Assembly (NCBI RefSeq): GCF_022811685.1
Contig: NZ_CP094532.1
Location: forward strand, 893,501-957,500
Direction: 5' to 3'
DNA: 64,000 bases
From: Chryseobacterium suipulveris
Lineage (GTDB): Bacteria > Bacteroidota > Bacteroidia > Flavobacteriales > Weeksellaceae
Part shown: piece after piece, positions 41,432 through 58,030 of the stretch
How positions within the stretch are numbered: the first letter of the stretch is position 1
Layout: each line of letters opens with the position of its first letter
Translations under genes and position numbers: made by a program
The notes under the pieces: generated by a model
Database searches by the model: none
Told to the model about the DNA's origin: nothing
The model's input: only the letters and a program-made list of their open reading frames with translations

Positions 41432-42868
41432 ATGAACTCTTTAATCGACAAATACAATATTCCCGGACCTCGATACACTTCTTATCCAACCGTTCCTTTT
41501 TGGGACGAAACCACCTTCACCGCCGATCAGTGGAAAGAATCCGTGATTCGGTCATTCAATGAAAGCAACAGTGGTGAGGGAATTTCAATCTATATTCACC
41601 TTCCGTTTTGCGAACAGCTGTGTACATTCTGCGCGTGTCACAAGAGGATTACCAAGCAACATTCCGTGGAAACTCCGTATCTGGAAAGCGTTTTGAAAGA
41701 ATGGGATCTGTATCTTGAATTGTTTAAGAGCCAAGAGCCAAGAGCCACGAGCCAAGAACCAATTAACGAAAGCCAAGATACGCTCCAACTCACCGACACT
41801 CCAACTCACCGACCCAAAATAAAAGAACTCCATCTCGGTGGCGGAACTCCAACTTTCTTTTCTCCTGAAAATTTAAGGATTTTACTGGAAGGAATTTTCG
41901 CCAAGGCAGAAATCGCTGAGAATCCTGAATTTTCTTTCGAAGGACATCCCAACAATACGACGAAAGAACATTTGCAGACGCTGTACGATTTGGGCTTCAG
42001 AAGATGCAGCTTCGGTGTACAGGATTACGATCCGCAGGTGCAGAAAGCCATCAACAGAATCCAGCCATTTGAAAATGTTGAAAAGGTGACAAATTGGGCT
42101 CGAGAAATCGGCTACAAAAGTATTTCCCACGATTTGGTGTTCGGTTTGCCGTTCCACAACTGGAAAAAACAGGAATATACGATCCGCAAAACTCTGGAGC
42201 TGAAACCTGACCGTTTGGCATTCTACTCCTACGCTCACGTTCCTTGGATTAAAGGTGTCGGACAAAGAGGTTTCGACGAAAACGATTTGCCGAGCGGCGA
42301 AGAAAAACGCAAACTCTACGAAAACGGAAAAAAACTTCTCGAAGAACTCGGCTACATCGAAGTCGGGATGGATCACTTTTCGCTGGAACACGACGATCTG
42401 TATCAGTCGATGATTTCGGGCGATATCCACAGGAACTTCATGGGGTATTCATCCAGCAAAACCCAGTTGATGATTGGTTTGGGAATGAGCGCGATCTCGG
42501 ATTCGTGGTACGCTTTTGCCCAAAACGAAAAAACGGTGGAGGAATACCAAAAAAGAGTGGAAGAAGGAATACTGCCTGTTTTCCGCGGACATATTTTAAA
42601 CGAAGAAGATTTAATCATCAGAAAGCATATCCTAAATTTAATGTGCCGACTTGAAACTTCTTGGGACACACAGAACTTCGTGCCCGATCTGGAAAACTCC
42701 ATTCACCAACTAAAAGAAATGGAAGCCGACGGTTTGGTGGAAATCTCCGACAACGCTATCAAGATTACCGAAAAAGGACGCGCCTTCACAAGAAACGTGG
42801 CGATGACCTTTGACCTGAGGATGATGCGTAACCAACCGGAAACAAGGATTTTTTCGATGACGATTTAA
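41432..42868 (+). CDS. hemN: Oxygen-independent coproporphyrinogen III oxidase with a repeat-derived insert
   Basis: Radical-SAM enzyme that decarboxylates coproporphyrinogen III in haem synthesis without oxygen. The start MNSLIDKYNIPGPRYTSYPT is the conserved HemN N-terminus. The iron-sulfur motif CEQLCTFCAC places cluster cysteines at 60, 64 and 67, and the SAM motif ELHLGGGTPTFFS begins near residue 132. YSYAHVPWIKG and the C-terminal HemN domain are intact; 478 residues in all. Residues about 100-128 (from SQEPRATSQEPINE to TDTPTHRP) are low complexity. They are encoded by the same 7-8 bp words found between genes elsewhere in the window, inserted in frame between the cluster loop and the GGGTP strand. 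Confidence 0.93.
   Translation: MNSLIDKYNIPGPRYTSYPTVPFWDETTFTADQWKESVIRSFNESNSGEGISIYIHLPFCEQLCTFCACHKRITKQHSVETPYLESVLKEWDLYLELFKSQEPRATSQEPINESQDTLQLTDTPTHRPKIKELHLGGGTPTFFSPENLRILLEGIFAKAEIAENPEFSFEGHPNNTTKEHLQTLYDLGFRRCSFGVQDYDPQVQKAINRIQPFENVEKVTNWAREIGYKSISHDLVFGLPFHNWKKQEYTIRKTLELKPDRLAFYSYAHVPWIKGVGQRGFDENDLPSGEEKRKLYENGKKLLEELGYIEVGMDHFSLEHDDLYQSMISGDIHRNFMGYSSSKTQLMIGLGMSAISDSWYAFAQNEKTVEEYQKRVEEGILPVFRGHILNEEDLIIRKHILNLMCRLETSWDTQNFVPDLENSIHQLKEMEADGLVEISDNAIKITEKGRAFTRNVAMTFDLRMMRNQPETRIFSMTI
41728..41812 (+). repeat. Heptamer/octamer tract inside hemN
   Basis: About 85 bases: four gccaaga-type heptamers, a degenerate part, then two copies of ctccaactcaccgac. The reverse complement of the second part matches the tract at 54899-54955 (gagttggagtgtaggtgag). 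Confidence 0.85.
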
Positions 42869-50441: not shown

Positions 50442-50869
50442 GGATTTCTGCTGATGGCGATTTCTGCAGTCATCGTGTTTTTCGTCTTCAACAAAAAGAA
50501 ATCCTGACGATTGATTTTCTTCATCTAATTCTAATTGCTTTTAAATGCACCATTTTGAATCGGTCATTGTTTAATTTTACGGTTTTAGTTTTTCACAAAG
50601 CTAGCAATGACTCTATTCCGCGTTTACTTCTTTGTCTGTCTGAAAAATAAGCGTTAGCGCCTTTGTCTAGCGTAAAAGCAGCATAAAATTTAAGTAAATC
50701 TTTGTCTGGCTTTGCGAGAATTCCTGTACGATTGTAGTTTACATAATTTGTGAATGAATAATATGCAACGCTCAAAATCTCGCAAAGCAAGACAAGGAAG
50801 ACATTTACATTCTTCATATTTTTAAGACAAACAAAGGCGCTTGCGCTTAGCCAAGATAAACAATGGCTT
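50442..50869. repeat. Partial tandem unit 4
   Basis: Matches units 1-3 up to the end of the palindrome (50630-50862), then diverges after atggctt. It has the unit 3 variant. No half element follows; instead comes a new spacer and another palindrome. Confidence 0.9.
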
Positions 50870-50886
50870 TTTCCCGCTCTTAGTTT

Positions 50887-51118
50887 CTTTGTCTATCTGA
50901 AAATAAGCGATAGCGCCTTTGTGTAGCTTGAAGCAGGATAATGTCAAGAAAAAACTTTGTTTGTCTTTGCGAGAATTTCTACGCAATTAAGTTATAATGC
51001 AATTTTCGAAAACAATAGCAACGCTTAGATTCTCGCAAAGCAAGACAAGGAAAAATATTTTACACTCTTCATATTTATAAGACAAACAAAGGCGCTTGTG
51101 CTTAGCGAAGATATACAA
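50887..51118. repeat. Diverged palindrome P5, left flank of the GxxExxY gene
   Basis: Same bipartite plan as in the array. The left arm words are aagcgatagcgcctttgt and ctttgtctttgcgagaat; the right arm words are attctcgcaaagcaagacaa and gacaaacaaaggcgcttg. The loop sequence differs from units 1-4. Confidence 0.8.
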
Positions 51119-54322: not shown

Positions 54323-54901
54323 ATGCACGAAATCATCACCGAAGACAAAGAAATATTCCTTTTCCTCAACAATTTGGGGAGCGACACTTTCGACCGTTTT
54401 TGGATAATGGTTTCGGGAACGTGGATCTGGGTTCCGCTGTATGTGATTTTCCTTTATCTCCTTGCCAAAAATTATAAAGTCCGCAATTTGGTCTTCATTC
54501 TGATTTTCATTGCGTTGGGAGTTACGGTTTCGGATCAGTTGGCGGGAATCTTCAAATCGGGGATCGGCAGATTGCGACCATGTCACGATCCGAGTTTGGA
54601 CCATTTGATGCGGGAAGTTCAGTGCGGTGGTCAGTTTGGGTTTTACTCCAGTCACGCCTCCAATACGTTCTTTATCGCAACTTTTATGACGATGCTGCTC
54701 TTCAAAAAATACAGATTTCTTCCGTATTTCCTCTTCTTTTGGGCGGCAATGGTTTCGTACAGCCGCATTTATCTTGGCGTACATTTCCCGATGGATATTT
54801 TAATGGGAGCCGCGATGGGATTTTTCCTCGGAGGTTTCTTCTCGACACTGGCTTTGAAGGTAATCAGAAAGCAGGAAAATAATGAGTCGGAGCGTGGGTG
54901 A
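54323..54901 (+). CDS. PAP2-family membrane phosphatase
   Basis: A 192-residue membrane phosphatase of the PAP2 superfamily (lipid phosphate or undecaprenyl-diphosphate phosphatase type). The start MHEIITEDKEIFLFLN is preferred; a longer frame begins in a hairpin repeat (MHQGKSQ) and adds 31 residues without family support. The motifs are K-x6-RP in KSGIGRLRP, SSHASNTFF and SRIYLGVHFPMDIL, giving the catalytic His and Asp. Five to six membrane helices are seen. The role is probably recycling of polyprenyl carrier lipid. Its last codons (ESERG and stop) run into a gttgg-type repeat tract. Confidence 0.88.
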   Translation: MHEIITEDKEIFLFLNNLGSDTFDRFWIMVSGTWIWVPLYVIFLYLLAKNYKVRNLVFILIFIALGVTVSDQLAGIFKSGIGRLRPCHDPSLDHLMREVQCGGQFGFYSSHASNTFFIATFMTMLLFKKYRFLPYFLFFWAAMVSYSRIYLGVHFPMDILMGAAMGFFLGGFFSTLALKVIRKQENNESERG

Positions 54902-55060
54902 GTTGGTGAGTTGGAGTGTAGGTGAGTTGGAGAGTATGAGAGTTGGAGCGTGAATTTCTCCGAGTGAATTTGCTTCGCTGTGAATTTCTCCGAGTGAATT
55001 TTGAAACCTGAAACCTGAAACCTGAAACTTGAACCTCGCACCCTGTATCATGCACCTAAT
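54893..55060. repeat. Heptamer/octamer tracts between PAP2 and polA
   Basis: gagttgg words (54893-54950), a doubled gtgaatttctccgagtgaattt (two copies ~20 bases apart), four gaaacct-type heptamers (55002-55030) and cctcgca words. The polA promoter begins right after. Confidence 0.8.
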
Positions 55061-55111
55061 TTGACCGAATAAATTACTTGTTTCTTGGTCCTTTTACTTG
55101 GCTCTTTTTTC

Positions 55112-55124: not shown

Positions 55125-57968
55125 ATGACACACAACGAAAACGACAAGCGCCTTTTCCTTATAGACGCCTATGCGATGATCTTTCGCGGCTATTACGCAC
55201 TCATCAGAAGTCCGAGAATTACCAGTACGGGAATCGACACTTCGGCAATTTTTGGGTTTACCAATTCTTTGATTGAACTGATCCGAAGAGAGCGTCCGTC
55301 GCATTTGGCGGTGGTTTTCGATGTGGGTGAAGCAAGTGTGCGAACCGCCGACTTTGCCGAATACAAAGCCAATCGGAGCGAAACTCCCGAAGCGATCAAA
55401 ATTGCCGTTCCCTACATTCACAGAATACTCGAAGCGATGCATGTCCCGATTTTGGGAGTGGAAGGTTACGAAGCCGACGATGTGATCGGAACCATCGCCT
55501 GCAAAGCGGAAGCGGAAGGTTACAAGGTTTTTATGGTGACTCCCGATAAAGATTTTGCGCAGTGCGTTACCGAGAACATCAAGATTTACAAGCCAGGTTT
55601 GAAGGGTGCCGAATTTGAGATTCTGGGAATTCCAGAAGTGTTGGCGAAATACGAAATCGAGGATCCGAAACAGGTCATCGATTTCCTTGCAATGATGGGC
55701 GATTCCGTTGACAATATTCCGGGATTGGAAGGAGTGGGCGAGAAAACTGCCAAGAAATTCCTGAAAGAGTACGGAAGCATTGAAAACCTTTTGGCGAATA
55801 CCCACGAAATCAAGGGGAAACTTCGCGAAAAAGTTGAAGCTTCTGCAGAACGTGGGATTCTTTCAAAGAAGTTGGCGACGATTCTATGCGACGCACCGAT
55901 TGAGTTTCATCAGGAACAGTACGATTTGGAGACTCCTGATTTTGAAAAAGTTAAAGAGATTTTTGATGAAATTGAATTCCGCAGATTGTATGAAAATCTG
56001 TACCGCGCTTTTGCGACCAATGGGGAATCAACCAACGGAATTCAGCAATCGGCGGATCCGAATAAAGTTTCACGATACGACAAAGTAGAACAGAAAAGCG
56101 GACCGATTCAACTGGATTTATTTGCCAATTTCGAGGAACTCGATCACGCAACGACCACTAAATCGACGGTGGACAATAACGACCACCTTTACCAATACAT
56201 TGCTTCACCGAAAGCGCAGAAAATTTTGGTGGAAAATCTTTTGGCTCAAAAAGCAGTTTGCTTCGACACCGAAACCACATCATTAAACGAAATGGAAGCC
56301 GAACTGATCGGGATGAGTTTCTCGTACAGAAAAGGTTTGGCGTATTATATTCCACTTTCGGAAAACAGGGAGGAAGCTTTGGAAACACTTGAAATTTTCC
56401 GTCCGTTTTTTGAGAAAAAGGAAATTATCAAAATCGCCCATAATTTAAAGTTCGACTATAAAATCCTCAAACAGTACGGAATTGAAGTGGAAGGTGCGAT
56501 GTTTGACACGATGATCGCGCATTACCTCCTGAATCCCGACGGAAGACACGGAATGGATTACCTCGCCGAAGTTTACCTGAATTACAAACCAGTACCGATT
56601 GAAACCCTGATTGGCAAAGGAAAAAATCAGGGAACGCTGCGTTCGGTTTCGATTGAAGATCAGACGAAATATGCGGGGGAAGATGCGGATGTTACTTTTC
56701 AACTTTATGAGATTTTCTCGCCTCAACTGAAAAAGGAAAACCTGGAGGATCTTTTTTACCAGGTCGAAATGCCTTTAATGAAAGTCCTTGCCAATATGGA
56801 ATTGGAGGGAATTTCACTCGACAAAAAATGGCTCGAACAGGAAAGCAAGGATTTGGAAAATGACTTGAAAGAACTCGAAACCAAAATCTTCAACTTGACG
56901 GGAGAGGAATTCAATATGAACTCGCCGCGACAGTTGGGAGAGATCCTTTTCGACAAACTGCAACTCGACCCAAAAGCAAAGAAAACGAAGACAGGTCAAT
57001 ACGCCACTTCCGAAGATGTGCTGCAGAAACTGAGTTCGAAACACGAGATCATTCCATTAATTCTGGAATACAGAACCTACCAAAAACTGAAATCAACCTA
57101 CGTTGACGCCTTGCCAAACCAGATCGACAAGGACGATAACCGCGTACACACCAATTTCTCGCAAACCACGGCTGCAACGGGAAGATTGGCTTCAGTAAAT
57201 CCGAATTTGCAGAATATTCCGATCCGTACTTTGCGTGGTCAGCAAATTCGTGGCGCATTCAAAGCTGATGAGGGAAAGAAGATTATTTCCGCCGATTACT
57301 CGCAGATTGAACTTCGCCTGATTGCCGAGATTTCCAACGAGGAAAATATGATCAAAGCTTTCCAGAACGGGGAGGATATTCACGCTTCCACCGCTTCAAA
57401 ATTGTTTAATGTTCCTTTGGAAGAAGTCACCAAAACCCAGCGTTCACAGGCGAAAACCGTCAACTTTGGAATCATCTACGGACAAGGAGCATTTGGTTTA
57501 GCTGAACAAACCGGACTTTCCCGTACCGAAGCAAAACAGATGATCGAAAACTATTTCGCGACCTATCCGCAACTGAAAAAATATATGGCAGAACAGGTGA
57601 AGAAAGCCCAGGATTTAGGTTACGTGGAAACAATCCTGAAAAGAAAGCGCCACCTGAAAGACATCAACTCCGCCAATTTTGTCGTGAAAGCGCACGCCGA
57701 AAGAAACGCGGTAAACGCACCCATTCAGGGAAGCGCAGCCGACATCATTAAAATCGCCATGATTAAGATTGATGAGGAACTTTCTGCAAAAAATTTAAAA
57801 ACAAAAATGTTGCTTCAAGTTCACGACGAACTGGTTTTCGAAGCACCGATTGAAGAAATAGAAACCGCCAAAGAACTCATCAAAACCGAAATGGAATCTG
57901 CGTTTGACACAAAAGTTCCGCTACTCGTGGAAGTTGGAGTGGGCGAGAACTGGTTGGAAGCGCACTAA
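55125..57968 (+). CDS. polA: DNA polymerase I
   Basis: A 947-residue repair and Okazaki-fragment polymerase with all three activities. The 5'-nuclease part (about 1-300) has LFLIDAYAMIFRGYYA, YEADDVIGTIA and GDSVDNIPGLEGVGEKTA. The 3'-5' exonuclease (about 365-550) keeps its acidic residues in CFDTETTSL, HNLKFDYKIL and YAGEDADVTFQLY. The polymerase part has TGRLASVNPNLQNIPIR, motif A SADYSQIELRLIAE, motif B RSQAKTVNFGIIYGQG and motif C LLQVHDELVFEAP. The start MTHNENDKRLFLIDAY is chosen over a TTG 27 bases upstream. The stop is followed at once by gttggaga octamers. Confidence 0.97.
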   Translation: MTHNENDKRLFLIDAYAMIFRGYYALIRSPRITSTGIDTSAIFGFTNSLIELIRRERPSHLAVVFDVGEASVRTADFAEYKANRSETPEAIKIAVPYIHRILEAMHVPILGVEGYEADDVIGTIACKAEAEGYKVFMVTPDKDFAQCVTENIKIYKPGLKGAEFEILGIPEVLAKYEIEDPKQVIDFLAMMGDSVDNIPGLEGVGEKTAKKFLKEYGSIENLLANTHEIKGKLREKVEASAERGILSKKLATILCDAPIEFHQEQYDLETPDFEKVKEIFDEIEFRRLYENLYRAFATNGESTNGIQQSADPNKVSRYDKVEQKSGPIQLDLFANFEELDHATTTKSTVDNNDHLYQYIASPKAQKILVENLLAQKAVCFDTETTSLNEMEAELIGMSFSYRKGLAYYIPLSENREEALETLEIFRPFFEKKEIIKIAHNLKFDYKILKQYGIEVEGAMFDTMIAHYLLNPDGRHGMDYLAEVYLNYKPVPIETLIGKGKNQGTLRSVSIEDQTKYAGEDADVTFQLYEIFSPQLKKENLEDLFYQVEMPLMKVLANMELEGISLDKKWLEQESKDLENDLKELETKIFNLTGEEFNMNSPRQLGEILFDKLQLDPKAKKTKTGQYATSEDVLQKLSSKHEIIPLILEYRTYQKLKSTYVDALPNQIDKDDNRVHTNFSQTTAATGRLASVNPNLQNIPIRTLRGQQIRGAFKADEGKKIISADYSQIELRLIAEISNEENMIKAFQNGEDIHASTASKLFNVPLEEVTKTQRSQAKTVNFGIIYGQGAFGLAEQTGLSRTEAKQMIENYFATYPQLKKYMAEQVKKAQDLGYVETILKRKRHLKDINSANFVVKAHAERNAVNAPIQGSAADIIKIAMIKIDEELSAKNLKTKMLLQVHDELVFEAPIEEIETAKELIKTEMESAFDTKVPLLVEVGVGENWLEAH

Positions 57969-58030
57969 CGAAGTTGGAGAGTTGGAGAGTTGGAGAGTTT
58001 GAAGTTTCGGGTTTCAAGTTTCAGGTAAGC
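57969..58030. repeat. gttggaga octamers after polA
   Basis: Three perfect 8-bp units, followed by gtttgaag and ttcaagtttcagg words of the repeat A type. Confidence 0.75.

Follow-up and report, generated by a model that had tools for sequence, protein, structure and literature searches.

The Rickettsia palindromic elements (Ogata et al. 2000, 2002) are, according to the review PMC10969869, about 150 bp long and palindromic, and encode a conserved peptide. Long simple sequence repeats were described by Mrazek et al. (2007), and TAACTGA heptamers are known from Beggiatoaceae, cyanobacteria and some Bacteroidetes (MacGregor 2015, PMC4679880); the latter tracts are dispersed, some of them overlap open reading frames (ORFs), and they are also reported from Elizabethkingia, which belongs to the same family as the genome studied here. 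Short intergenic repeats are usually regarded as non-coding debris shaped by slippage. The STRR heptamers of cyanobacteria occur in the RNase P RNA gene. In the open-licence literature, covered mainly by titles and the beginnings of abstracts, no report of heptamer or octamer tracts inside genes was found for the source family, which is weak evidence of absence.

The tract described here lies in the hemN gene of Chryseobacterium suipulveris (G000), within a window of 64,000 nucleotides, the whole stretch of DNA that was analysed (Table 1). The ORF is intact, 478 residues counted from the ATG at 41432, and its product scores 414.6 bits against the curated cut-off of 324.95 for NCBIfam hemN (TIGR00538), which places it in the family. 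The closest solved relative, by both sequence and fold, is E. coli HemN (1olt; TM 0.81/0.89), and the nearest named relatives are Kaistella and Chryseobacterium records. The CxxxCxxC and GGGTP motifs are kept, with C60, C64, C67 and G136-P140 invariant in an alignment of 46 sequences. A search with PF01218 found no HemF in the genome, while it gave matches in E. coli and in two further genomes used as controls, and HemN is therefore probably its only enzyme for the coproporphyrinogen III oxidation step.

Table 1. Positions in the window of hemN, of the two repeat blocks inside it and of the intergenic tracts with related words.
Feature	Position	Strand	Remarks
hemN, oxygen-independent coproporphyrinogen III oxidase	41432..42868	+	TIGR00538 above cut-off; 1olt top match
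Heptamer block, GAGCCAA type, peptide KSQEPRA	41726..41782	+	Regular to 41762, then decaying
Octamer block, two 16-base units ACRCTCCAACTCACCG, peptide TLQLTDTPTHR	41780..41813	+	Word dispersed in the genome
Octamer tract with the HemN octamer word, just after the stop of the upstream gene	54884..54948	-	22 exact bases in common with the tract in E2 gene L232
14-base and 7-base repeat blocks, same intergenic mosaic as 54884..54948	54950..55033	-	Tandem Repeats Finder
Degenerate word of the GAGCCAAGTAAAAGGACCAAG type, in the spacer from the mosaic tract to the next gene	55083..55110	-	By eye
Second intergenic octamer array (CTCCAACT)	57972..57999	-	Tandem Repeats Finder and word count

The extra stretch of HemN, residues about 100-127, is made of GAGCCAA heptamers and a block of CTCCAACT octamers. 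Tandem Repeats Finder recovers a repeat of period 7 at 41726-41762 (5.3 copies, AAGAGCC) and one of period 16 at 41783-41813 (1.9 copies, CTCCAACTCACCGACA), in good agreement with an earlier note on this DNA that had set a tract of intergenic type at 41728..41812. The same note had seen the words between genes, in reverse complement near 54899-54955, and they were found there as well: CTCCAACTCACC with at most two mismatches occurs 10 times in the window against 2.9 expected, a number that none of 100 shuffles reaches, and four of the ten matches lie at 54897-54948 on the minus strand. For the heptamer word, four of the five matches in the window (at most two mismatches; five are reached by 2 of 100 shuffles) are the hemN tract itself, and its dispersal is apparent only at the scale of the whole genome. 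With tandem units of 5-11 bases beyond chance and dispersal in the genome, the tract can be classed as a long simple sequence repeat, as judged from Tandem Repeats Finder arrays and counts against reversed controls in place of the published statistical definition. A 255-base tandem repeat (1.9 copies, 80% matches) is also present in the window, at 50628-51118, outside ORFs of at least 100 amino acids.

The size of the insert becomes clear when the loop, measured from the first radical-SAM cluster cysteine to GGGTPTF, is compared between relatives. It is 83 residues long in the source genome, 56 in E. coli, and 57 in most sequences of three overlapping sets: 57 of the 82 genome loci extracted, 89 of the 120 best proteins listed of 8000 scored, and 66 of 80 GTDB contigs retained from 281. 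The 82 loci come from 119 genomes searched, 110 of which gave some match, those left unextracted being weak matches only (best E 3.8e-22). The insert thus amounts to 26 residues over the common length (83 vs 57), and not about 29 as first estimated. Intermediate loops of 58-67 residues are common among near relatives (58-65 in 20 of the 82 loci), and longer ones were found in G064 (85), G047 (76), G045 (74) and G048 (74) as well as in seven further proteins of the 120 (P0003, P0027, P0055, P0099, P0103, P0106 and P0119; 73-85). Neither the sequence nor the length of these long loops is conserved; most of the relatives examined have no insert, and they do not have in common a conserved sequence of the length seen in the source genome, which the earlier note had named as evidence against its reading. 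The G045 insert is an AGTCCGA-type heptamer block followed by the octamer CAATCACT, the peptide of which is, in a comparison at the protein level, also that of the P0003 loop (NSITQSLNHSIT); the G047 insert contains CTCCAACTC, and a shortened loop of KSQEP type is present in G022 and P0049. In the inserts of G000, G045 and G047 (DNA) and of P0003 (protein), a heptamer-type block seems to come first and an octamer-type block after it. Repeats are prone to assembly error, and the insert could be thought a sequencing or assembly artefact, but this can hardly be credited, since the genome is a single contig of 3.04 Mb and 99.88% complete, the frame is intact, and comparable inserts are present in other genomes and in metagenome proteins.

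When a HemN tree is built with the loop removed, at least nine changes are needed for the 12 rows with long loops (73 residues or more), a count that cannot by itself tell gain from loss. The tree holds 102 rows, many of its forks being weakly supported, and omits the loci L069-L082, identical rows, eight rows with long branches and, apart from 15, the proteins with a loop of 57. A single ancestral insertion in all 12 was rejected, as they do not form one clade (p 2.8e-5). The sister of the source sequence, P0002, is placed on a starred branch; its HemN is 96% identical over the alignment (93% in the protein search), and its loop of 67 residues is unrelated in sequence to that of the source genome, which implies that the loop has been replaced and not only lengthened. 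Judging from these comparisons, several independent lengthenings of the HemN loop have taken place within the family, and they differ in sequence. The proposed spread of a tract into HemN therefore stands as an event, but not as a single one, since the site has been hit repeatedly.

In an AlphaFold2 model, the tract is placed between the helix 77-99 and the strand 129-136, with pLDDT below 50 for residues 103-124, and the insert is thus predicted to fall in a loop of low model confidence that is probably disordered. In barrels of the HemN type, such loops from helix to strand generally lie on the side opposite the active site. The earlier reading that a tract of intergenic type had become part of HemN, with its frame kept, and had been tolerated is supported, the product being apparently still working. 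It could also be that the insert was selected for its sequence or length, for instance for binding a partner, the likeness to repeats being secondary. The reading frame and the hydrophilic orientation are kept, and lengthened loops recur, as would be expected from such a function. However, the long loops have no conserved sequence or length, the closest relative P0002 has a different loop and most relatives lack the insert, and we consider a selected function very improbable.

The words in the tract are dispersed in the genome in which they are found. With one mismatch, AGCCAAGAGCCAAGA has 26 matches in the source genome against 0 for the reversed control, and CTCCAACTCACCGACAC with three mismatches has 85 against 2. 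Exact CTCCAACTCWCC occurs 46 times in the source genome and 25 times in G047, the 24 other genomes having 0-4 copies each, and the first two are also the two of the 26 with CTCCAACTCWCC inside HemN. Similarly, CAATCACTCAATCACTC with one mismatch is found 15 times in G045 (two of them within HemN), 14 times in G027 and 11 times in G047, the others having at most 2. In G000, G047 and G045, the inserted HemN words are thus abundant at home and rare in most of the relatives examined. When 16-mers from the loops were compared with the home genome, the source genome had 184 matches in its sample against 26 for the reversed control, and G045 had 119 against 2; the small home samples of G022 and G047 gave 2 against 7 and 6 against 3. 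For the G064 loop, matches were more numerous in G045 (164 vs 9) than at home (22 vs 6). G027 has 14 octamer words in its genome, yet a HemN loop of 57 residues, and G001 and G039 are rich in the heptamer word (29 and 23) with none in their HemN. The match between loop and home genome is thus not universal, and word abundance does not predict a HemN insert. A comparison of 12-mers with shuffled loops proved too blunt (11.8 vs 6.0 at home for G000, 13.3 vs 7.8 for G045, other rows near background), and the longer words and reversed controls were used in its place.

HemN is not the only gene that carries the words. The 46 exact octamer matches and 33 heptamer matches (at most one mismatch) in the source genome fall into 43 clusters, 12 of which are inside genes with a family match, in frame: HemN, a nucleotide-sugar dehydrogenase, a LuxE-type protein, two E2 acyltransferases, leucyl-tRNA synthetase, 3-hydroxyacyl-CoA dehydrogenase, an M3 peptidase, an ABC-F-type ATPase, a GHL10 protein, a penicillinase-repressor-family protein (with the tract at its tail) and LptE. 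Excluded from this count were three clusters where the gene start is uncertain (L237, L246 and L247, the last of which would be in the hydrophobic orientation), and an amidase match (L241) was dropped as a lone 12-mer without a surrounding tract; the other 27 are elsewhere, some of them in short, unjudged ORFs. By a simple rule, ORFs cover about 86% of a 400-kb sample of the genome, and with 12 of 43 clusters in genes, the tracts look depleted there. The words sit in loops, linkers and tails of the enzymes, and the hydrophilic orientation is used by all 11 interior or tail tracts (two-sided p 0.001 on the assumption of independence, counted post hoc). In this orientation the words are free of stops, and units of 7 or 8 bases give the same repeating peptide in all three frames.

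The exception to this orientation is LptE, where the reversed heptamer word reads LGSFSLAL and forms the hydrophobic part of an apparent lipoprotein signal peptide. The reversed word is at the same place in G022 and G047, with something similar in G027, and is absent in G020, G026, G021, G039 and G045 (9 of 12 N-termini compared). The LptE loci are L254 (G000:C1:203742-204374), L300 and L307, and in G022 and G047 the start of the apparent signal peptide is also encoded by an AAGTCCG heptamer (SLKSEVRSPK). The leucyl-tRNA synthetase L242 (G000:C1:382122-384200) has the KSQEPR word at residues 23-28 and, at about residues 332-436, a DUF559 domain (PF04480, E 1.5e-32) inside or beside the editing domain. 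At L243 (G000:C1:531378-531654), a 65-base unit with the heptamer composite is repeated in about five tandem copies.

It is conceivable that the words belong to a mobile element, of which they are the portion that can be seen, and that a transposase or a similar enzyme moves it, as has been proposed for the Rickettsia palindromic elements. They are dispersed in both orientations and lie in frame in 12 genes, and one composite recurs as the 65-base unit at 531378-531654. However, no inverted repeat was found in 41680-41860, the hemN tract forms no stable hairpin (191 of 200 shuffles fold at least as well), and sites aligned by eye have no visible constant ends. These observations make transposition decidedly unlikely, and the missing inverted repeat together with the shuffle-level folding rules out a palindromic or hairpin element as the hemN tract. 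Among known RNA families at gathering scores, only four tRNAs were found in the window.

A more serious alternative is that the loop grew by local slippage only, duplicating its own bases, and that its likeness to intergenic tracts reflects a slippage bias acting throughout the genome. Both hemN blocks are tandem, and the short KSQEP loop of G022 and P0049 could be the source of the heptamer block. Against this, the octamer word in the source loop is absent from the G022 loop and has 1 match in the G022 genome, the sister P0002 has an unrelated loop, and identical interrupted composites of 22-30 bases are found at unlinked loci. In a comparison over 622 kb of the source genome with reversed controls, 30 exact bases are common to a PDH-E2 gene and a site at 2987424 outside genes of annotated size, 28 to the M3 peptidase and PDH-E2 genes, 25 to LptE and a tract at 445358, and 22 to the E2 gene L232 and the intergenic tract at 54897 of the window. 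The longest stretch that HemN has elsewhere is 22 bases, in common with the sugar dehydrogenase gene (14 for its reversed control). The other seven in-gene tracts share 15-21 bases, the ABC-F case (15 vs 13) being unconvincing; the reversed controls of all these comparisons give 11-14. The same interrupted composite is not expected from independent slippage, which favours ectopic copying followed by slippage and makes local slippage alone unlikely, if worth serious consideration. With moderate confidence, we regard the hemN tract as an in-frame insertion of the genome's own dispersed short repeat words, which would have been copied and then expanded by slippage; the shared stretches suggest that words may be copied around the genome. 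The earlier view that slippage in non-coding DNA alone is insufficient is thus borne out by composite words recurring at unlinked sites, genic and intergenic. Its further proposal, that the tracts are mobile or spread by template switching, fared less well; no inverted repeat or stable hairpin was found, and some form of local expansion may account for what is read as copying.

Insertion at a recurring site is not confined to HemN. The loop of 3-hydroxyacyl-CoA dehydrogenase has heptamer words in three of the seven genomes read (G000, G001 and G027) and none in G022, G015, G020 and G047; these are seven of 11 orthologues, four being without anchors, and G045 has a distant relative only. No two of the five genomes compared (of 12) have the same M3 peptidase loop, and the sugar-dehydrogenase loop varies from 63 to 119 residues between anchors (10 of 12 genomes compared). 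In the source genome, the latter loop (L224, G000:C1:511159-512601) has two copies of 'SVIAS.ACHPEVLEGST' flanking a stretch of octamer words, and at this loop the G020 orthologue carries other sequence that resembles repeats (SEESQ, LSGAEG). Core patterns of 'CHPEVLEGS' had no match, or 1 for one shorter core, in the window and the 400-kb sample, L224 being outside both. Upstream of the gene at 55125, which we take to encode DNA polymerase I, the spacer holds the mosaic tracts in the source genome and is shorter and tract-free in G022, G015 and G020, which by eye share the same upstream gene.

It may be that words reach new sites by ectopic copying, through template switching or through gene conversion at short stretches of matching sequence, and that they would then grow or shrink by slippage. 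Selection would remove most insertions, and those in loops away from the active site could be kept if their overall length is divisible by three. Recurrent hits on the same loops would reflect their tolerance of insertions, and not a target in their sequence. More tentatively, and somewhat short of what we would call probable, each genome may have a repeat 'dialect': a palindrome-free copying process, with no known enzyme, would spread words of 7-8 bases and replace them wholesale over short evolutionary times, leaving its traces in core enzymes at the same loops and occasionally forming working protein parts, such as the apparent LptE signal peptide.

If words specific to a genome keep entering the same protein loops, these loops are natural recorders of how and when repeats spread, and the question of copying or slippage becomes testable by comparing strains. 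The word tracts would also be a source of new protein segments in ordinary bacteria, apparently including signal peptides, and they mark where HemN and other enzymes can accommodate long insertions.

Compared to described systems, the STRR heptamers are similar in being dispersed heptamer tracts within a housekeeping gene, but this is an RNA gene, in another phylum and with other words. The Rickettsia palindromic elements are like the words found here in being dispersed and in frame in unrelated metabolic genes, the products of which apparently work. Unlike these elements, the words are 7-8 bases, of variable length, without inverted repeat and specific to the genome, and one loop has been hit repeatedly by different words within the family. 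Thus, of the features of Rickettsia palindromic or MITE-like elements, the in-frame position in unrelated genes is present, and a palindrome with a stable hairpin is not. TAACTGA repeats are also dispersed and mostly intergenic heptamer tracts (PMC4679880), but they have stops in the forward orientation and are reported mostly at protein ends, whereas the words described here are stop-free as used and lie inside conserved enzymes. The difference from these systems is that words of 7 and 8 bases, stop-free, specific to the genome and arranged as mosaics, lie within conserved enzymes and recur at one loop.
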